From positions 1-64,000 of the forward strand of contig CAMAWC010000006.1 of NCBI GenBank assembly GCA_945861875.1: 64,000 nt of DNA, given 5' to 3'. Position 1 is the stretch's first letter; each line of letters opens with the position of its first letter. The notes under the pieces are model-generated. The model did no database searches. It had not been told where the DNA came from and saw only the letters and a list, made by a program, of their open reading frames with translations. Below, piece by piece: positions 2,253 through 10,466 of this stretch. Origin of the DNA: Bordetella parapertussis (GTDB lineage: Bacteria > Pseudomonadota > Gammaproteobacteria > Burkholderiales > SG8-39). The translations under genes and the position numbers were made by a program.

Positions 2253-3710
2253 CTAGCGGCGCCAGAAACCCGGCGTGAATACAACGATAAGCGTGAATAA
2301 TTCCAGCCGACCGAGCAGCATGGCGATGGTACAGACCCAGGTTTGGAAGTCCGTGAGCACGGCATAGGTTGTCGCCGGCCCGACCAGGTTGAGGCCGGGA
2401 CCGGTGTTATTGATACAGGCGATCACCGCGGTAAAGGCGGTGATGATGTCGAGCCCGGATGCGGCCAGCAGCATGGTCATGGCAATTACGCTGCCGCCGT
2501 AAACCAGCATGAAGGCGAGGACGGCGAAAATAATCTTGTTTTCCACCGTTTCGCCACCCAGTTTGACCGACACCACCGCACGCGGGTGGATGATGCGCGT
2601 CAGTTCGCGCACCGCCTGGCGCGCCATCAGTTCCGCGCGGATCATTTTTATGCCGCCACCGGTGGAGCCGGAGCAACTGGCAAAACAGCACAGGAACAAC
2701 ATCCACACCGGCGCGAATATCGGCCACAGGTTGTAATCGGTGCTGGCAAAGCCAGTGGTGGTGGCAATCGAGACAAGGTTGAAGCTGGCAAAGCGCAAAG
2801 CCGTCCAGAAACTCGCGTAGACGCCGTGAAACCACAGGTAGAGCGCAATGCCGACACAACTGCCAAGCACCACCAGCAGGAACAATCCGGCTTCCGGATC
2901 GCGCACATACGGCGCGGTGCTGCGCCGGCGCAAGGCGATAAAGTGGGTGGCGAAATTGATGCCGGCGATCAACATGAACACAATCGTCACGCCTTCGATG
3001 GCCGGGGAATTCCAGAAACCAAAACTGTCGTCGTGGGAGGAAAAGCCGCCCAGCCCCATGGTCGAAAAGGTGTGCATCATGGCGTCAAGCCAGCTCATGC
3101 CGGCCATGCGCAGGCACAGAAAACAGGCGACGGTGATGAGCAAATACACCACCCACAGGCCCTTGGCGGTTTCGGTGATGCGCGGGGTCAGCTTGGTGTC
3201 CTTCATTGGTCCCGGCGTTTCAGCCTTGTAAATCTGGCTGCCGCCCACGCCCAACAACGGCAGGATGGCCACCGCCAGGACGATGATGCCCATGCCACCC
3301 AGCCACACCAGGAAAGTGCGCCATATATTGATCGAATGGGGCAACTGGTCGAGGCCGCTCAACACCGTCGCGCCGGTGGTGGTCAGCCCCGACACCGTTT
3401 CAAAATAGGCGTCGGTAAAGGACAGGGTGTCGAGATAGAGCATCAGCGGCAGCGTGGCAAAAGCCGGCAACACGGTCCAGACAAGCGCTACCAGCAAGAA
3501 GCCGTCGCGCGTCTGCAGTTCGCGCCGCTGCCCCTTGGTGGCGACGCGCAACAGCGCCCCGGCCGCGGCCGTGATCAGCATGCTCTGCTCGAACACCAGC
3601 CGGGTGCCATCGTCAAGGTACACGGCAAACGCGAGGGGGAAAGCCATGCACAACGCGAACAGCATGATGACCACGCTGAGGACGTTAAGGACGGCAGGCA
3701 GGCGGACCAC
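2253..3710 (-). CDS. trkH: Trk potassium uptake channel subunit TrkH/TrkG
   Basis: TrkH is the membrane channel of the Trk K+ uptake system and works with the cytosolic gate TrkA, encoded immediately upstream. Its 485 residues match the family's usual length. Four selectivity-filter hairpins can be seen, one in each M1-P-M2 repeat: TTTGATV, STMGLGGF, ATTTGFAS and NNTGPGLN. Each carries the glycine that replaces GYG in these channels. The start is a GTG with a good ribosome site (GAGGGAAC), 18 bases after trkA. The KFDL... type cytoplasmic linkers are normal. The gene ends the def-to-trk run. Identity is certain; whether it corresponds to TrkH or TrkG cannot be told. Confidence 0.95.
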   Translation of the reverse strand: MVRLPAVLNVLSVVIMLFALCMAFPLAFAVYLDDGTRLVFEQSMLITAAAGALLRVATKGQRRELQTRDGFLLVALVWTVLPAFATLPLMLYLDTLSFTDAYFETVSGLTTTGATVLSGLDQLPHSINIWRTFLVWLGGMGIIVLAVAILPLLGVGGSQIYKAETPGPMKDTKLTPRITETAKGLWVVYLLITVACFLCLRMAGMSWLDAMMHTFSTMGLGGFSSHDDSFGFWNSPAIEGVTIVFMLIAGINFATHFIALRRRSTAPYVRDPEAGLFLLVVLGSCVGIALYLWFHGVYASFWTALRFASFNLVSIATTTGFASTDYNLWPIFAPVWMLFLCCFASCSGSTGGGIKMIRAELMARQAVRELTRIIHPRAVVSVKLGGETVENKIIFAVLAFMLVYGGSVIAMTMLLAASGLDIITAFTAVIACINNTGPGLNLVGPATTYAVLTDFQTWVCTIAMLLGRLELFTLIVVFTPGFWRR

Positions 3711-3728: not shown

Positions 3729-5102
3729 TCAGAGAAAGCCGGCGCTGACCTGGAACAGCTTTTCGACCTTGGGCACCATTTTCTTCTCGGTCACGAACAC
3801 AATCACATGGTCCCCGGTCTCCACAACGGTGTCGTGGTGGGCCATGATCACCTCCTCGCCGCGCACCAGCGCAGCGATGGTGGCGCCTTTGGGCAATTCG
3901 ATGTCCTCGAGCTTACGCCCGACCATGCGACAGGAACCGGCATCGCCGTGCACCACCGCCTCCAGCGCCTCGGCCGCGCCGCGCCGCAGGCTGTGCACCT
4001 GCGCCACGTCGCCACGGCGCACATGGGCGAGCAGCGATCCTATGGTGGCCAGGGCCGGCGATATGGCAATATCAATGCGCCCGTCCTGCAGCAGATCGAC
4101 GTAGGCACGCCGGTTGATCAGGGCCACCACGCGGCGCGCGCCCATGCGCTTGGCCAGCAGCGTCGACATGATGTTGTTCTCGTCATCGTTGGTCACCGCG
4201 ATGAAAAGGTCCATCTCGTCGACGTTTTCCGATTCGAGCAATGTCTCGTCGGTAACATCACCGTTGAGCACCAGCGCATTGTCGAGAACGTTTGACAGCC
4301 GCTCGCAGCGCGGTTTGTTGCGGTCGATGATTTTTACCAGGTAATCCCCGTCCAGGGCGCGCGCCAGGCGTTCACCGATGTTGCCGCCGCCGGCGATCAT
4401 CACGCGCTTGACCGGCCGGTCCATGCGGCGCAATTCCTGCATCACGGTGCGGATATCCTTGGTCGCCGCCATGCAAAATACTTCGTCGCCCGCCTGCACC
4501 ACGGTGTCGCCCTCGGGCACGATCGGGCTGTCACCGCGGAATATGGCGGCGATGCGCGCATCGACATTCGGAATGTGCTTGCGAAGGTCCTTCAGCGGGT
4601 GGCCGACCAGCGGTCCGCCCTTGAACGCGCGCACCGCAATCAGGCTCACCAAGCCGCCGGCAAACTCCACCACCTGCAGCGCTTCGGGAAATTCGACCAG
4701 TTTGACGATGTAGTCGGTGAGTATCTGTTCGGGGCAGATGGCGTGATCGACGGCAAAACACTCGGGGGAAAACACCGCCTCGTTATTGAGGTAGGAGCTC
4801 GAGCGGATGCGCGCGATGCGCGTCGGCAGGTTGAACATCTGCGCCGCGATCTTGCAAGCGACCAGGTTAACCTCGTCACTCTGGGTGACCGCAATCAGCA
4901 GGTCGGCGTCCTCGACGCCGGCCTCGACCAGCGTCGCCGGATGGGCGGCGCTGCCGACCAGCGTGCGCAGGTCCAGACGGTCCTGCAGCGCGTGCAGTCG
5001 CGGACCGTCGGTATCGACAACGGTAATGTCGTTGGCCTCGGAGACCAGGCTTTCGGCGACCGTGCTGCCGACCTGTCCCGCGCCGAGAATGATTATTTTC
5101 AA
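3729..5102 (-). CDS. trkA: Trk system potassium transport regulatory protein TrkA
   Basis: TrkA is the peripheral NAD(H)-binding gate of the Trk K+ channel. The 457-residue protein has the family's duplicated layout: an N-terminal Rossmann fold (GAGQVGSTVAE, residues 7-17), a TrkA-C domain, a second Rossmann fold beginning around residue 236 (AGGGNIGERLA), and a second TrkA-C domain ending in the HDTVVETGDHVIVFV pattern. It lies directly before trkH with an 18-base gap, so the two form one transcription unit. The nearest upstream gene is the NtrX-like regulator, 66 bases away. The ATG is unambiguous because the first strand of the Rossmann fold starts at residue 2. Confidence 0.96.
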   Translation of the reverse strand: MKIIILGAGQVGSTVAESLVSEANDITVVDTDGPRLHALQDRLDLRTLVGSAAHPATLVEAGVEDADLLIAVTQSDEVNLVACKIAAQMFNLPTRIARIRSSSYLNNEAVFSPECFAVDHAICPEQILTDYIVKLVEFPEALQVVEFAGGLVSLIAVRAFKGGPLVGHPLKDLRKHIPNVDARIAAIFRGDSPIVPEGDTVVQAGDEVFCMAATKDIRTVMQELRRMDRPVKRVMIAGGGNIGERLARALDGDYLVKIIDRNKPRCERLSNVLDNALVLNGDVTDETLLESENVDEMDLFIAVTNDDENNIMSTLLAKRMGARRVVALINRRAYVDLLQDGRIDIAISPALATIGSLLAHVRRGDVAQVHSLRRGAAEALEAVVHGDAGSCRMVGRKLEDIELPKGATIAALVRGEEVIMAHHDTVVETGDHVIVFVTEKKMVPKVEKLFQVSAGFL

Positions 5103-5168: not shown

Positions 5169-6428
5169 CTAATCCTTGTCATCCTTGCGCGAGGCGGCGA
5201 TACCGAGGGTCTTCAACTTGCGGTAAAGATGGGTGCGTTCCAGTCCGCTTTTTTCGGCCACGCGGATGATTGAGCCTTGTTCGCGGCCGAGGTGGTGCTC
5301 AAAATAGGCGCGCTCGAACGCTTCGCGCGCCTCACGCAGGGGAAGGTCGAGAAAGAGGGTCGCGGAGTCTGGCGCATCACCATTTAGCTGGGCCAGTGCC
5401 TGTTCCACTTCGTCGGGGCCGATTTCGTCGCCAAGCGCGGTAATGGCGATGCTTTTCACCGCCTGCTGCAACTCTTCAAGGTTACGTGGCCAGGCAAAAT
5501 TACGCAGAGAGTTGAGCGCGGCGGTGGAAAAGCGGCGCGGCGGGCAAAACTTCGTCTCAACCAGCTGCGCCAGCACCACGGCGGCGATGTCGGGAATGTC
5601 TTCGGCGTGCTGGCGCAGCGCCGGCAGCGCAAAACTGAGCTCGCCCAGCCGTGCCAGCAGGCCGGCATCGAAAGCATGCCCGCCAACCAGCACCGCCGGA
5701 TCGACGGCGGTAAACGATACCAGCCGGACATTATGGCGATCTGAGCGCGTGGCCAGGGTTGCCAAATGTTTTTGCTGGTTGCGGTTAAGCAGCAACAGCT
5801 CCTCGACAAAAAGTATGCCGCCCGCGGCCTCTTGCAGCAGGTCATGCGCGGGATCGTCGAGCCGTGCCGTCGCAACGACAAAGGGCGCATTACCCGCAAG
5901 CAGCGCCCTGGCGTACAACTCGGGCATGGCGCCGGCTTCACCGCGCAACAGCAGCGGCGCACCCACCCCGGCAAGTTGTGCCAGGCGGCGCCGCAAATCG
6001 TTGATCAGGGTCGAGCGGCCGAGGTTGGCCAGTACGAGGCCCGCCCCGGGCAGCGCTGTGCCTTCCTGCAGGCGCAGCGCGCGCTTTACCGTGGCCAGCA
6101 GTTTTTGCAGGGCGATGGGTTTTTCCAGGAAATCGAGGGCGCCGATGCGCGTGGCCTCGACCGCAGTGTCTATGGTGGCGTGTCCGGACATCATCACCAC
6201 CGGCATGGTGAGCTGGCCGCCAGCGGCCCATTCCTTGAGCAGCGAAATACCATCGGTATCGGGCATCCAGATATCGAGCAGGACCAGGTCGGGCCGCGCT
6301 TTTGCCCGCTGCGCGCGCGCGACGGTGGCGTTCTCGGCAAGGCACACGTCATGGCCCTCGTCGGAGAGAATCTCCGAGAGCAGTTCGCGTATGCCCATTT
6401 CGTCGTCAACTACCAGTATTTGTGCCAT
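5169..6428 (-). CDS. NtrX-like response regulator with degenerate sigma-54 AAA+ domain
   Basis: This 419-residue regulator is the partner of the NtrY-like kinase encoded just upstream. Residues 1-120 form a receiver domain with the acidic pocket (DDE, 8-10), phosphoacceptor Asp52 and Lys103. The last 50 residues form a Fis-type helix-turn-helix (SIIRVAEKSGLERTHLYRKLKTLGI). Between them is a shortened AAA+ domain. The Walker A position reads GEAGAMPE (163-170) with no lysine, the GAFTGA loop that contacts sigma-54 is absent, and the Walker B region reads ILFVEE. It therefore probably binds DNA and responds to phosphorylation but cannot drive sigma-54 by ATP hydrolysis. In family terms it resembles the alphaproteobacterial NtrX proteins that have lost GAFTGA. 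Confidence 0.85.
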   Translation of the reverse strand: MAQILVVDDEMGIRELLSEILSDEGHDVCLAENATVARAQRAKARPDLVLLDIWMPDTDGISLLKEWAAGGQLTMPVVMMSGHATIDTAVEATRIGALDFLEKPIALQKLLATVKRALRLQEGTALPGAGLVLANLGRSTLINDLRRRLAQLAGVGAPLLLRGEAGAMPELYARALLAGNAPFVVATARLDDPAHDLLQEAAGGILFVEELLLLNRNQQKHLATLATRSDRHNVRLVSFTAVDPAVLVGGHAFDAGLLARLGELSFALPALRQHAEDIPDIAAVVLAQLVETKFCPPRRFSTAALNSLRNFAWPRNLEELQQAVKSIAITALGDEIGPDEVEQALAQLNGDAPDSATLFLDLPLREAREAFERAYFEHHLGREQGSIIRVAEKSGLERTHLYRKLKTLGIAASRKDDKD

Positions 6429-6457
6429 GTTTTTGCGTCAGCTTTGGTGTGCCCGGA

Positions 6458-8569
6458 TCACGCCGCCTGAGCCAGCGGCAGCACAATCCGTATTTGTGCG
6501 CCAAGGACGGTCGCGCCCTCGGTGCGGTTTTCGATGCTGATGGTGCCGTGGTGCTCATCGACGATCTTTTTAACGATCGCCAGGCCAAGCCCGGTACCTT
6601 TGGGCTTGGTCGTCACATAGGGCTCAAAGGCGCGTTGCATGATGTTCTCGGGGAAGCCGCTGCCGTTGTCGCCGATCACCAGCAACACCTTGTTGCCTAC
6701 GAGTTCGGTGCGCAGCTCGATGCGGGCGTCGGGTATGCCGACCAGCGCGTCCTGGGCGTTTTGCAGCAGGTTGTGGATCACCTGGCGCATCTGGTTGGTG
6801 TCGCCGGACACCGCCGGCAGTCCCAGCGCAAGACGCGCGTCTATGGCCGGACCGGTGTGGCCGTACAAGCCCAGCACTTCGCCGACAAGGCGGTTGAGGT
6901 CGAGCGGGCCGAGCACCGGTGTGGGCATGCGCGCATAGTCGCGAAAATCGTCGACCATGTTCTTCATCGAGGTGACCTGGTTGACGATGGTCTCGGTGGC
7001 GCGGTCGAGCACGGCCATGTCATCGGGCGCCAGTTTGCCGGCAAGCTTCATCTGCAACCGTTCCGCCGAGAGCTGGATCGGCGTGAGCGGATTCTTGATT
7101 TCGTGCGCGAGGCGGCGCGCCACCTCGCCCCAGGCCGAGGCGCGCTGCGCCTGCACCAGCTGCGAAATATCGTCGAACACCACGATATAGCCGCCGCCCG
7201 CAGTGGGCAGTTGCGATCCGCGCAACAGCAACACCTGGCCGCGCCCGGGCAGTTCGAGCTGCTGCTGCCAGGCTGCCTCGCCGCGCTTGCGAAACTCATC
7301 GCGTATGGTCGCGGCCAGCTCGGGGTGTTGGGTCCACTCGTCCAGAGTGCGACCGGATAACTGGCTGATGTCCTGTCCGAGAATGGTCCCGGCGCTGTGA
7401 TTAGCGGTTGCAAGAGCGAATGCGGCGTCAAATACCAGCACCCCGGCGGAAAGGTTGGCGAGGATGTTTTCAAGATAGGTCTTGGTCGTTTCCAGCTCGG
7501 CACGGCTCGCCTCGGTAACGGTACGCGCGTCCTCAAGCTGGCTGGTCATGCTGTTGAATGATTTGGTGAGGATGCCCAGTTCGTCCCGGCTTTGCACCAG
7601 CACGCGCCGGCTGAAGTCGCCGCGCGCCACGGCCTGGGTGCCCTGCGCCAGTTCGGCCAGCGGCCCGGACAGCCGGCGCGACAGCACAAAGGCCAGTGCA
7701 ATGGCCGAAAAAAGCGCCAGCAGCAGCGTCAGCGTCAGGGTAAGCAGATAGATATCGCGCAGCCCGTCGCGCGACAAGGACAGTTCCTTGTAGGCGCGGT
7801 ACACGCTTTGCACGCTCTCGGCATTGGCGGCGAGCGCTCCGGGCACCGGCTGCGTGAGTTGCAAAAAGCGCAATTCCTCGCCGAGACTGCCCGGCGCAAG
7901 GGGCACGATTACGCGCAATGAAAGGGCGCGCTCGGCGCCCTCGACCGCACCGTAGCTGCGCGCCTGGCGCGCCTGGCGCAATTGCGCCTGGGTGGGCAGC
8001 TCGGGCAGCAGTTTGCCCAGGTCGCGGCTGGAAGTGGCGATCACTTTCCCGCTGCCGCTGACCAGCAGCGCGTCGCTGACGCCCGATTGCTCGCGCATGC
8101 GATTGAGCATGAACGACTGCTGCGGCAAAGGTTGGTCAGACAGTTCAAGGGCCATGCTGGTGGCTTTGCCGCGCAAATCGACCAGCAGGTTATCGAGCGC
8201 GGCGCGGCCAAGATTTATGCCACCTTCAAGCGCGTTTTCCACGCGCACGTCAAACCAGGACTCAATGCTCTTGGCGAGGAACTGCAGCGACACGGTGTAG
8301 ACCAGGGCGCCGGGGACCAGCGCGACCAGGGCAAACATCAGCACCAGCCGGAAGGTAAGCAGCGAACCGAACACCTTGGCGCGACGCGCGTGCCAGAGCG
8401 TAACCAGCTGGTAGCCGACCAGGGCCAGCAATCCGAGCACCAGCACCGCATTGAGGCCCAGCAACAGCGGGTAATGCTGCGCGAACAACGGCGTATTGGC
8501 GCTCGCCGCCGCCAAAAGAAACAGCAGCACCGCGCCGACGCCGACACTGACCAGCAGCAGGTAGCTCAT
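6458..8569 (-). CDS. NtrY-like membrane sensor histidine kinase
   Basis: The 703-residue protein is an inner-membrane histidine kinase. Two or three transmembrane segments lie at residues about 3-22, 37-58 and 72-95. They are followed by a periplasmic region, another membrane segment (272-297), a HAMP domain, a PAS domain (about 365-480), an H-box with phosphoacceptor His489 (RRLAHEIKNPLTP), and a C-terminal ATPase domain with GDNGSGFP and GTGLGLAIVKKI. I place the start at 8569 because this ATG overlaps the stop of the DUF4390 gene as ATGA; the open frame extends to 8635 without a better start. The partner regulator follows after 29 bases. The pair is usually linked to nitrogen or redox sensing, but the signal is not shown here. 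Confidence 0.9.
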   Translation of the reverse strand: MSYLLLVSVGVGAVLLFLLAAASANTPLFAQHYPLLLGLNAVLVLGLLALVGYQLVTLWHARRAKVFGSLLTFRLVLMFALVALVPGALVYTVSLQFLAKSIESWFDVRVENALEGGINLGRAALDNLLVDLRGKATSMALELSDQPLPQQSFMLNRMREQSGVSDALLVSGSGKVIATSSRDLGKLLPELPTQAQLRQARQARSYGAVEGAERALSLRVIVPLAPGSLGEELRFLQLTQPVPGALAANAESVQSVYRAYKELSLSRDGLRDIYLLTLTLTLLLALFSAIALAFVLSRRLSGPLAELAQGTQAVARGDFSRRVLVQSRDELGILTKSFNSMTSQLEDARTVTEASRAELETTKTYLENILANLSAGVLVFDAAFALATANHSAGTILGQDISQLSGRTLDEWTQHPELAATIRDEFRKRGEAAWQQQLELPGRGQVLLLRGSQLPTAGGGYIVVFDDISQLVQAQRASAWGEVARRLAHEIKNPLTPIQLSAERLQMKLAGKLAPDDMAVLDRATETIVNQVTSMKNMVDDFRDYARMPTPVLGPLDLNRLVGEVLGLYGHTGPAIDARLALGLPAVSGDTNQMRQVIHNLLQNAQDALVGIPDARIELRTELVGNKVLLVIGDNGSGFPENIMQRAFEPYVTTKPKGTGLGLAIVKKIVDEHHGTISIENRTEGATVLGAQIRIVLPLAQAA

Positions 8570-9159
8570 CGCGCGACACCCCCGGTCGGCTTGCCCACCG
8601 CTTCCTCGACCGGCGCGGACAAGGTAAACGGCCAACGCTTCCAGTCAGACGAAAGATTCCAGTCGCGGCTGGTAAGCGCATCGACCTGAAACGGCTTGGG
8701 CAGCTGCGTCAGGTCAAGCCGCATGCGCAAGGCGCCGGTATAGCTGTCGCCGGTCTTGAACTGGGGGGTGCCGGAAATAAGCCAGCTGCGCACGCGCGAA
8801 AGCGCGCGCATCGCCTCGTCCAGTGAAGTGAAGTTCTGGTGCAGGACTCCGCTGGACAAGCGGTACTGCCTTGTCAACGGCTGGTAGGTAAGGCGCAGCC
8901 TTTGTTGTTGTGAAACGACTTTTTCGTCCAGCCAGTACCAGCGCGCGCGGGTGGCTTCAAATTCAACCAAAAAATACAGCGACAAGCCCTTGTCGATGGC
9001 CTCTTCCTGTCGCGGCCGCAATTCAATGTCGAAATCGGCGTTGACCACATAGCCTTCGTCGCCAAGGTCGACGCTGGCGCGGCGCACCTCGATGCCCTCG
9101 GCGACGGCGACTGCGGCGTGCGTGACAAGCACCAGCAGCAACAGAATGCGTTTGAGCAT
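8566..9159 (-). CDS. DUF4390 domain protein, probable envelope protein
   Basis: This 197-residue protein has a signal peptide (residues 1-21, ending AVAVA before EG) and a strand-rich mature part with the blocks LYFLVEFEATRARWYWLDEK and WKRWPFTLS. They match the DUF4390 family, which in betaproteobacteria sits between rsmB and an ntrY-like kinase. The function is unknown; export to the periplasm or envelope is likely. Its ATG overlaps the rsmB stop (TGATG), and its stop overlaps the kinase start (ATGA), so translation of the three genes is coupled. That arrangement suggests the protein may work with the kinase, for example as a periplasmic input, but this is inference. Confidence 0.85.
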   Translation of the reverse strand: MLKRILLLLVLVTHAAVAVAEGIEVRRASVDLGDEGYVVNADFDIELRPRQEEAIDKGLSLYFLVEFEATRARWYWLDEKVVSQQQRLRLTYQPLTRQYRLSSGVLHQNFTSLDEAMRALSRVRSWLISGTPQFKTGDSYTGALRMRLDLTQLPKPFQVDALTSRDWNLSSDWKRWPFTLSAPVEEAVGKPTGGVAR

Positions 9160-10466
9160 CAGTTGGTCTTTTCCAGCGTGGCGTAAAAAAATCCGTCGTG
9201 CTGCTCGTCCGGCAGCAACTGGCCGTCCGCGGGCAATGCCATTTCCGGTGCAAACGGACTACGCTTCGCATCCGCATGCCGCGCAAGGAAAGCGGTGACC
9301 TGCCCGCTGTTTTCCTCGGGAAACACCGAACAAGTAGCGTAAAGCAGTTTTCCGCCCGGGGCGAGCAGCGGCCACAATGCGTCCAGCATGTCGCGCTGTA
9401 CGGCGGCAAACCCGCCAATGTCCTTGGCGCGGCGCAGCCACTTGATATCCGGGTGGCGGCGCACCACACCCGAGGCGGAGCACGGAGCATCGAGCAGTAT
9501 CCGCTCAAACAGCCTGCCATCCCACCAGGCTTGCGGGACCAGGCAGTCGCCCGTCACCACCTCTGCGGCAAGCCCCAGGCGGGCAAGATTCTGTCCAATC
9601 CTGACTGCGCGCAGGCCGTCGTTCTCGAGCGCGACAAGCGCGCAATCGGCATTTTCAAGAATATGCCCGGTCTTGCCGCCGGGGGCCGCACAGGCATCGA
9701 GCACGCGCATGCCCTGGCGCACATCCAGGAGCAGCGCCGCCAGTTGTGCGCCGGCATCCTGCACCGAGGCCTCGCCCTGCGCGAATCCGGGGATCTGGCC
9801 CACCGGTACGGGACGCTCGAGTAGCAGCGCAGTTGCGGAGAGCACTGTTGCCGGGATGCCGCTGGCGCGCAGCCTGTCGGCAAAATCGGGCAGCGTCGTC
9901 TTGCGCAGGTTGACGCGCAGGCACATTGGCGGATGGTTGTTCGATTGCGCCAGCACCCCCCGCCACTGGTCGGGGTAGGCTCGCCGCAACCGGTCGACCC
10001 ACCATTGTGGATGGCGCCAAAGAACGGCCTCGCTCTCCTCAGCCGTGCGCTGCAGGGATTCGCTATTGCGCAAAAAATTCCGCAGTACCGCATTGGCCAG
10101 CCCGACCGCGGCATCAAGGCCCGCCTGACGCGCCGCCTCTACCGCCTGGTCTACGGTGGTGTGGGCAAACTGGGGAGCAGAGCGCAGCTCGTTCAGGGCA
10201 ACCAGCAACAAGGCGCGCAGCTCCGGACTGGCGAGGGGTTTATGCAGCAGGGCATCAAGCAGCGCTGCGTTTATGCCGTACTCGCGCAAGGTGCGGTAGG
10301 ACAGATCGCGGATCGCCGCCCTCAGCGCCTCACCATTCTCCGGGCGGTCGGCGATACGCAGCAAAGCTTTGCCAAGACTCTCGCCGCCGGCCACGGCCGC
10401 AACCACGCTGGCGGAAGCGCGCATGGATTGGGCAAGGGAGTGGGCGAAAACGGGCGGGGCTGACAT
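9159..10466 (-). CDS. rsmB: 16S rRNA m5C967 methyltransferase RsmB
   Basis: RsmB methylates cytosine 967 of 16S rRNA using S-adenosylmethionine. The N-terminal 140 residues form the NusB-like RNA-binding domain. The C-terminal domain has the SAM motif LDACAAPGGKTGHIL (residues 256-270) and the two catalytic cysteines of the m5C methyltransferases: Cys329 in LLDAPCSASGV and Cys379 in ATCSVFPEENSGQV. The 435-residue length is normal. The gene lies 107 bases downstream of fmt in the usual def-fmt-rsmB order and overlaps the DUF4390 gene by one base. The ATG at 10466 is supported because the NusB-like domain starts shortly afterwards. Confidence 0.95.
   Translation of the reverse strand: MSAPPVFAHSLAQSMRASASVVAAVAGGESLGKALLRIADRPENGEALRAAIRDLSYRTLREYGINAALLDALLHKPLASPELRALLLVALNELRSAPQFAHTTVDQAVEAARQAGLDAAVGLANAVLRNFLRNSESLQRTAEESEAVLWRHPQWWVDRLRRAYPDQWRGVLAQSNNHPPMCLRVNLRKTTLPDFADRLRASGIPATVLSATALLLERPVPVGQIPGFAQGEASVQDAGAQLAALLLDVRQGMRVLDACAAPGGKTGHILENADCALVALENDGLRAVRIGQNLARLGLAAEVVTGDCLVPQAWWDGRLFERILLDAPCSASGVVRRHPDIKWLRRAKDIGGFAAVQRDMLDALWPLLAPGGKLLYATCSVFPEENSGQVTAFLARHADAKRSPFAPEMALPADGQLLPDEQHDGFFYATLEKTN

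Follow-up and report, generated by a model that had tools for sequence, protein, structure and literature searches.

A catalytically dead AAA+ domain is the normal state of NtrX-type response regulators in the order Burkholderiales, and not a local oddity of the protein encoded in the window (the whole 64,000-nucleotide stretch of DNA analysed here). The window protein has lost the motifs on which ATP use and contact with sigma-54 depend, and the domain that carried them is kept as a folded remnant in most family codes sampled across the genomes of the order, while other lineages have no such domain.

Gene cluster and domain layout of the window NtrX

The features assigned in the window, with coordinates given on the forward strand, were as follows.

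5169..6428 (read 6428..5169), minus strand: NtrX/PlrR-type response regulator gene, 419 aa, ATG start, ATPase-dead AAA+ domain
6069..6422, minus strand: receiver domain, residues 3-120, with phospho-acceptor D52 (Pfam and invariant columns)
5373..6050, minus strand: degenerate AAA+ domain with lid, residues 127-352 (Pfam, motif columns and model)
5919..5942, minus strand: Walker A remnant GEAGAMPE, residues 163-170 (alignment)
5796..5822, minus strand: Walker B remnant GGILFVEEL, residues 203-211 (alignment)
5199..5342, minus strand: Fis-type helix-turn-helix (HTH), residues 363-410 (Pfam HTH_8 at 368-406 and invariant columns)
6458..8569, minus strand: NtrY/PlrS-like sensor kinase, ATG at 8569 in an ORF that opens at 8635, HEIKN at the phospho-histidine site
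8566..9159, minus strand: PlrP-like DUF4390 protein (Pfam), overlapping ntrY by ATGA at 8566-8569
9159..10466, minus strand: RsmB-type 16S rRNA methyltransferase, 5' neighbour of the cluster (PF01189, PF22458 and PF01029 over cut-off)
3729..5102, minus strand: TrkA potassium transporter subunit, 3' neighbour (NCBIfam NF007032, 736.7 bits, cut-off 309)
2253..3710, minus strand: TrkH-like potassium transporter subunit (best NCBIfam matches under their cut-offs)

The cluster reads 5' to 3' on one strand as rsmB-plrP(DUF4390)-ntrY-ntrX-trkA-trkH. The window ntrX lies 3' of rsmB, plrP and the NtrY-like kinase gene, and its product joins a receiver aspartate to a Fis-type HTH, as in the PlrSR/NtrYX family of beta- and gamma-proteobacteria. 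The corresponding cluster of Bordetella is given as rsmB-plrP-plrS-plrR-trkA-trkH, with PlrSR assigned to the NtrYX family (PMC13001219). Among the fetched ntrX loci of at least 6.4 kb, a DUF4390 gene and ntrY were found beside ntrX in 77 of 84 using phmmer, and rsmB was also in view in 57 of these 77; two of the seven loci without the phmmer pair (L184 and L212) hold a diverged DUF4390 gene detected by Pfam, and L211, described below, is a third of the seven.

Two loci depart further from this arrangement. In genome G389 (L138/L184) the NtrX is a diverged long form (408 aa, 36% identical) with an unrecognisable Walker A, and the adjacent plrP has also diverged, though it is still a DUF4390 gene by Pfam. 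In genome G204 of family f41 (L211:3470-6957), rsmB nearly abuts ntrY with no plrP between them; the NtrX there has 196 aa, with receiver and HTH (Pfam) joined by a very short linker, and no end branch listed for the NtrY tree is longer than that of its NtrY. The AAA+ domain was possibly lost here for a fourth time, along with plrP.

Matches over the Pfam cut-offs in the window protein were Response_reg (4-114), Sigma54_activ_2 (PF14532, 136-271), AAA_lid_14 (PF25601, 272-353) and HTH_8 (368-406); no PF00158 match was listed for it at E<=1e-3. Receiver residues D8, D9, D52, S81 and K103 were invariant in all 53 aligned sequences, so that the original prediction of an intact receiver and Fis-type HTH was borne out. 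The best NCBIfam model was the NtrX equivalog NF051870, at 240.3 bits and under its curated cut-off of 600, a threshold also missed (479.3 bits) by an orthologue from another order with an intact P-loop (L075). The original prediction gave no strand; on the plus strand, frame 1 of 5169-6428 is not open and contains stops, and an antisense ORF of 365 aa (plus strand, window 5443-6540) overlies ntrX and is taken as a chance ORF, of a kind common in GC-rich genomes.

Loss of the AAA+ motifs in the window protein and its orthologues

The P-loop of the window NtrX reads GEAGAMPE, against GESGSGKE in NtrC of the same genome (L001), the sixth-position glycine and the seventh-position lysine being replaced by M and P. 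Alignment with Brucella NtrX and with two enhancer-binding proteins (bEBPs) of the same genome showed that the stretch holding GAFTGA is deleted and that about 20 residues are missing between Walker A and Walker B. The Walker B aspartate is replaced by glutamate, the arginine finger by aspartate and the sensor II arginine by glutamate. Of the features that mark a sigma-54 activator, the P-loop GxxxxGK, GAFTGA, the arginine finger and the sensor II arginine are thus all absent, and the AAA+ fold with its lid is still present (Pfam and domain model). As controls, both paralogues from the same genome (L001 and L002) keep the lysine, GAFTGA, the arginine finger and sensor II, with a Walker A-B span of 73 residues, and Brucella NtrX has the P-loop lysine and a span of 69.

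L001 was identified as NtrC by NCBIfam TIGR01818 (702.7 bits against a cut-off of 558.6), and rpoN is present in the genome. Since rpoN is present and NtrC and the second paralogue have intact motifs, the loss is specific to the window NtrX, and a host-wide loss of sigma-54 was ruled out; sigma-54 control therefore exists in the cell, but the window NtrX has left it. Because the P-loop lysine, GAFTGA, the arginine finger and the sensor II arginine have all been lost, the conclusion from sequence that the protein would not be able to activate sigma-54, as had originally been proposed, is well supported. Annotation of such proteins as sigma-54-dependent is probably wrong.

The orthologues compared comprised 160 long and 35 short distinct proteins of the order, an uneven sample drawn from loci chosen or supplied; 75 of the 160 long ones came from named records whose place in the order was judged from title and similarity. 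The Walker A-B span was 46-51 residues in all 160 long orthologues, against 73 in the paralogues, so the shortened segment and the loss of the Walker A lysine and GAFTGA that had been predicted for the window protein were confirmed by alignment, and the shortening extends to every long orthologue of the order that was compared. The same shortening in 160 of 160 proteins rules out a sequencing error or a loop displaced by one, an outcome that would have overturned the original prediction. The idea that the window protein stands apart in having lost its ATP site did not hold, for the same state is found in 159 of the 160.

Scored in aligned columns (a looser pattern count, 6 of 160, is superseded), the P-loop lysine position was K in two of the 160 proteins, of which L068 is genuine and L212 reads as a misalignment. 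L068, from genome G105, is the sole long orthologue of the order with a genuine P-loop lysine (GEPGVGKS), yet its core is as short as the rest. The arginine-finger column held D in 131 and E in 17 (acidic in 148) and R in one, and the sensor II arginine was kept in one of 160. No GAFTGA pattern was found in 198 distinct long orthologues, made up of the 160 from the order and 38 from other orders of the class. Among those 38, the P-loop lysine was kept in 29, and the Walker A-B span was 62-68 residues in 29 and 44-55 in nine. The nine shortened proteins (L082, L104-L110 and L114) are spread over five family codes, and shortening outside the order is likely to be parallel.

Named records with the long form included Nitrosomonas, Nitrosospira, Thiobacillus, Dechloromonas, Azospira, Chromobacterium, Snodgrassella and Methylophilus, among others. 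Four metagenome-assembled records titled Klebsiella pneumoniae or Bordetella parapertussis (L221, L222, L225 and L274) carry long-form NtrX proteins 52-58% identical to that of the window, and look like mislabelled environmental betaproteobacteria. The window genome is itself judged betaproteobacterial from its nearest named records.

Spread, history and constraint of the remnant

An NtrX match at E<=1e-40 was obtained in 383 of 399 genomes of the order; seven of the 16 genomes without one were searched again at E<=1e-30, and three matched. The best E value was above 1e-60 in 123 of the 383 matching genomes (a hand count that leaves out G389 and the contig-edge case G415). Of these 123, 58 were searched again, and in all 58 the best match covered the receiver and nothing else. 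The 35 distinct short orthologues are 193-266 aa long; all have the HTH pattern and 33 a crude receiver pattern, and in 11 examined cases the linker consists to 49-75% of A, P, S, T, Q or G. Three of them scanned with Pfam gave receiver and HTH with no AAA+ match; in L044 HTH_8 fell just under cut-off, and a single weak hit to an unrelated family also appeared there below threshold. Three short proteins (L041-L043) come from viral-contig records with no established host, and a contig-edge short row (L177) was left out of the counts. Within one genus (g58) long and short NtrX coexist, and the adjoining NtrY proteins are 76% identical.

The history of the domain was followed on trees of the neighbouring NtrY, so that the columns of the long/short trait itself stayed unused. 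On the tree of 87 rows (86 with a state) long and short forms need four changes. Well supported branches force three of these, and one of the four rests on the single long-branched row L211, whose placement is unsure. With long branches left out (48 rows), three changes are needed, and a single clade of short forms is rejected (p-AU 2.9e-72). The tree of the domains shared by all NtrX forms, with 172 columns, which are too few, also gave three changes but is compatible with one common origin of the short forms (p-AU 0.309). A single origin is thus rejected on the NtrY tree, though not by the NtrX alignment alone; a short ntrX may have spread by gene transfer and replaced the long one. Because the outgroup is long, the changes are read as losses, and on the NtrY tree we read at least three losses of the AAA+ domain: one in a large clade that takes in eight family codes and adjoins the family of the window, one in family f24 and one inside genus g58.

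Domain search and structure prediction, both proposed with the original prediction, gave a folded AAA+ remnant without its catalytic motifs. AlphaFold2, run with the 53-sequence alignment, returned a pLDDT of 91.8 for the whole protein and 95.4 for residues 127-352 modelled alone. The domain model superposed on NtrC1 (1ny5) with Z 22.1 and an rmsd of 2.4 over 216 residues; the matches to Brucella NtrX (5m7n) and to VpsR (7v2b), both at Z 21.4, count as ties with it. In rough estimates, from pairs that share genomes and in some of which dS is near saturation, dN/dS of the remnant was 0.07-0.43 in 12 pairs of the order and that of the receiver 0.01-0.13, lower in each pair; outside the order the AAA+ domain gave 0.03-0.09 in five pairs, in one of which the receiver was above the domain. 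We read this as relaxed but real purifying constraint on the remnant, and three signs, the confident model, the structural matches and this constraint, indicate that it is a real folded domain.

These data bear directly on the view that the remnant is merely decaying, kept only for want of a deletion so far and with no role other than not misfolding. Its dN/dS lies mostly above that of the domain outside the order, and several lineages have dispensed with the domain altogether, but dN/dS is well under 1 in all 12 pairs and the Walker A-B core is nearly constant in length over all 160 long orthologues, and we regard simple decay as unlikely.

It is doubtful, too, that the remnant has acquired a new job, binding a protein partner or a small ligand, such as the cyclic dinucleotides bound by VpsR and FleQ, and so tuning DNA binding. 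The constraint on the domain and its confidently modelled fold would suit such a role, as would the acidic residue that stands, as if newly selected, at the arginine-finger position of 148 of the 160 long orthologues. VpsR, whose entry title refers to binding of c-di-GMP, is also one of the structures tied as best match (Foldseek rank 1). However, many enhancer-binding domains match at similar Z, so that VpsR is not singled out, and the domain is missing from whole families. A full course of events in which loss of GAFTGA was followed by loss of the P-loop with the deletion of about 20 residues, and then by at least three independent removals of the whole domain, the surviving dead domain having gained a ligand or partner role of which the acidic residue at the arginine-finger position is the mark, would in our judgement be improbable.

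Proposed mode of action and comparison with known systems

With good confidence we favour a PlrSR/NtrYX-type regulator in which phosphorylation of D52 would lead to a dimer that binds sigma-70 promoters through its HTH, the dead AAA+ remnant being a dispensable spacer or scaffold. NtrY would both phosphorylate and dephosphorylate D52, and the periplasmic DUF4390 protein probably tunes NtrY, by homology to Bordetella PlrP, for which a role in restraining the phosphatase activity of PlrS has been proposed (PMC13001219). The phosphorylated regulator would then dimerise and bind DNA by its C-terminal Fis-type HTH, acting at sigma-70 promoters as activator or repressor. The remnant itself would neither hydrolyse ATP nor contact sigma-54, and may serve as a spacer or dimer scaffold.

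Phosphorylation control of the window NtrX is likely because the receiver is intact and ntrY adjoins its gene. By analogy, the protein could plausibly work with sigma-70 or as a repressor: regulation of sigma-70 promoters is described for some bEBPs without GAFTGA (PMC10274813), which supports, and does not prove, such an output here. That the remnant may be dispensable follows from the related lineages that have no domain; against a spacer-only role, it is constrained and widely kept, beyond what a mere spacer would require. Aromatoleum (L266) and Cognatazoarcus (L291), which we take to be relatives of Azoarcus olearius, carry the long form. The ntrX gene is putatively essential in A. olearius (PMC9769520), and data indicate that PlrR phosphorylated at D52 is essential in culture in Bordetella (PMC13001219); if both architectures are indeed essential, this fits a common core function residing in the receiver and HTH. 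A conserved cell-envelope target was unsupported: GCAN9TGC, a candidate NtrX site derived from alpha-proteobacteria and Neisseria (PMC7240162), occurred upstream of mraZ in three of 30 loci of the order, no enrichment over the mean of 2.6 given by shuffling.

The arginine finger, sensor II and P-loop form the interface between AAA+ subunits. It is accordingly very improbable that the window protein joins the rings of other enhancer-binding proteins such as NtrC as a dead subunit that poisons or modulates them, for although its lid and general AAA+ fold survive and the genome has both rpoN and NtrC, those interface elements are lost and the domain-less orthologues would be incapable of such a role.

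Regulators of the RegA/PrrA/ActR type consist of a receiver, a linker and a Fis-type HTH. The short NtrX orthologues match them in layout, and the window NtrX differs from them in keeping a central domain, its AAA+ remnant. Among bEBPs without GAFTGA, NtrC of Caulobacter and of Rhodobacter capsulatus and VspR have likewise lost the sigma-54 loop and regulate sigma-70 promoters; Caulobacter NtrC is nevertheless predicted to use ATP (PMC10274813), whereas the ATP site of the window protein is gone. Brucella abortus NtrX (5m7n, 5m7o and 5m7p) is its best Foldseek match, aligns over nearly the full length (E 1.6e-56) and also has no GAFTGA, but it keeps GPSGAGKE and, by the entry titles, was solved with ATP and with ADP, whereas the window protein has neither the P-loop nor the roughly 20 residues.

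PlrR of Bordetella is alike in gene order, in the 4-bp overlap of plrP with the kinase gene, in receiver D52 and in the DNA-binding C-terminus, but it is described as a receiver and a DNA-binding domain only, (PMC13001219); the window NtrX has a folded AAA+ remnant, some 220 residues long, between the two. None of the literature passages covered describes a dead AAA+ remnant, and we do not claim it to be unpublished. The PlrR/NtrX family, of which the window NtrX is a member, and beta-proteobacterial NtrX without an AAA+ domain are already known. The statement, made in 2026, that NtrX proteins of beta-proteobacteria "lack the AAA+ domain" (PMC13001219) needs qualifying, as many lineages keep a dead, folded remnant. 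Because forms with and without the domain coexist beside similar kinases, even in one genus, the order offers a natural experiment on the role of the remnant. To the known systems our comparison adds a modest new point, a graded series from a P-loop-bearing domain through a dead remnant to no domain at all.
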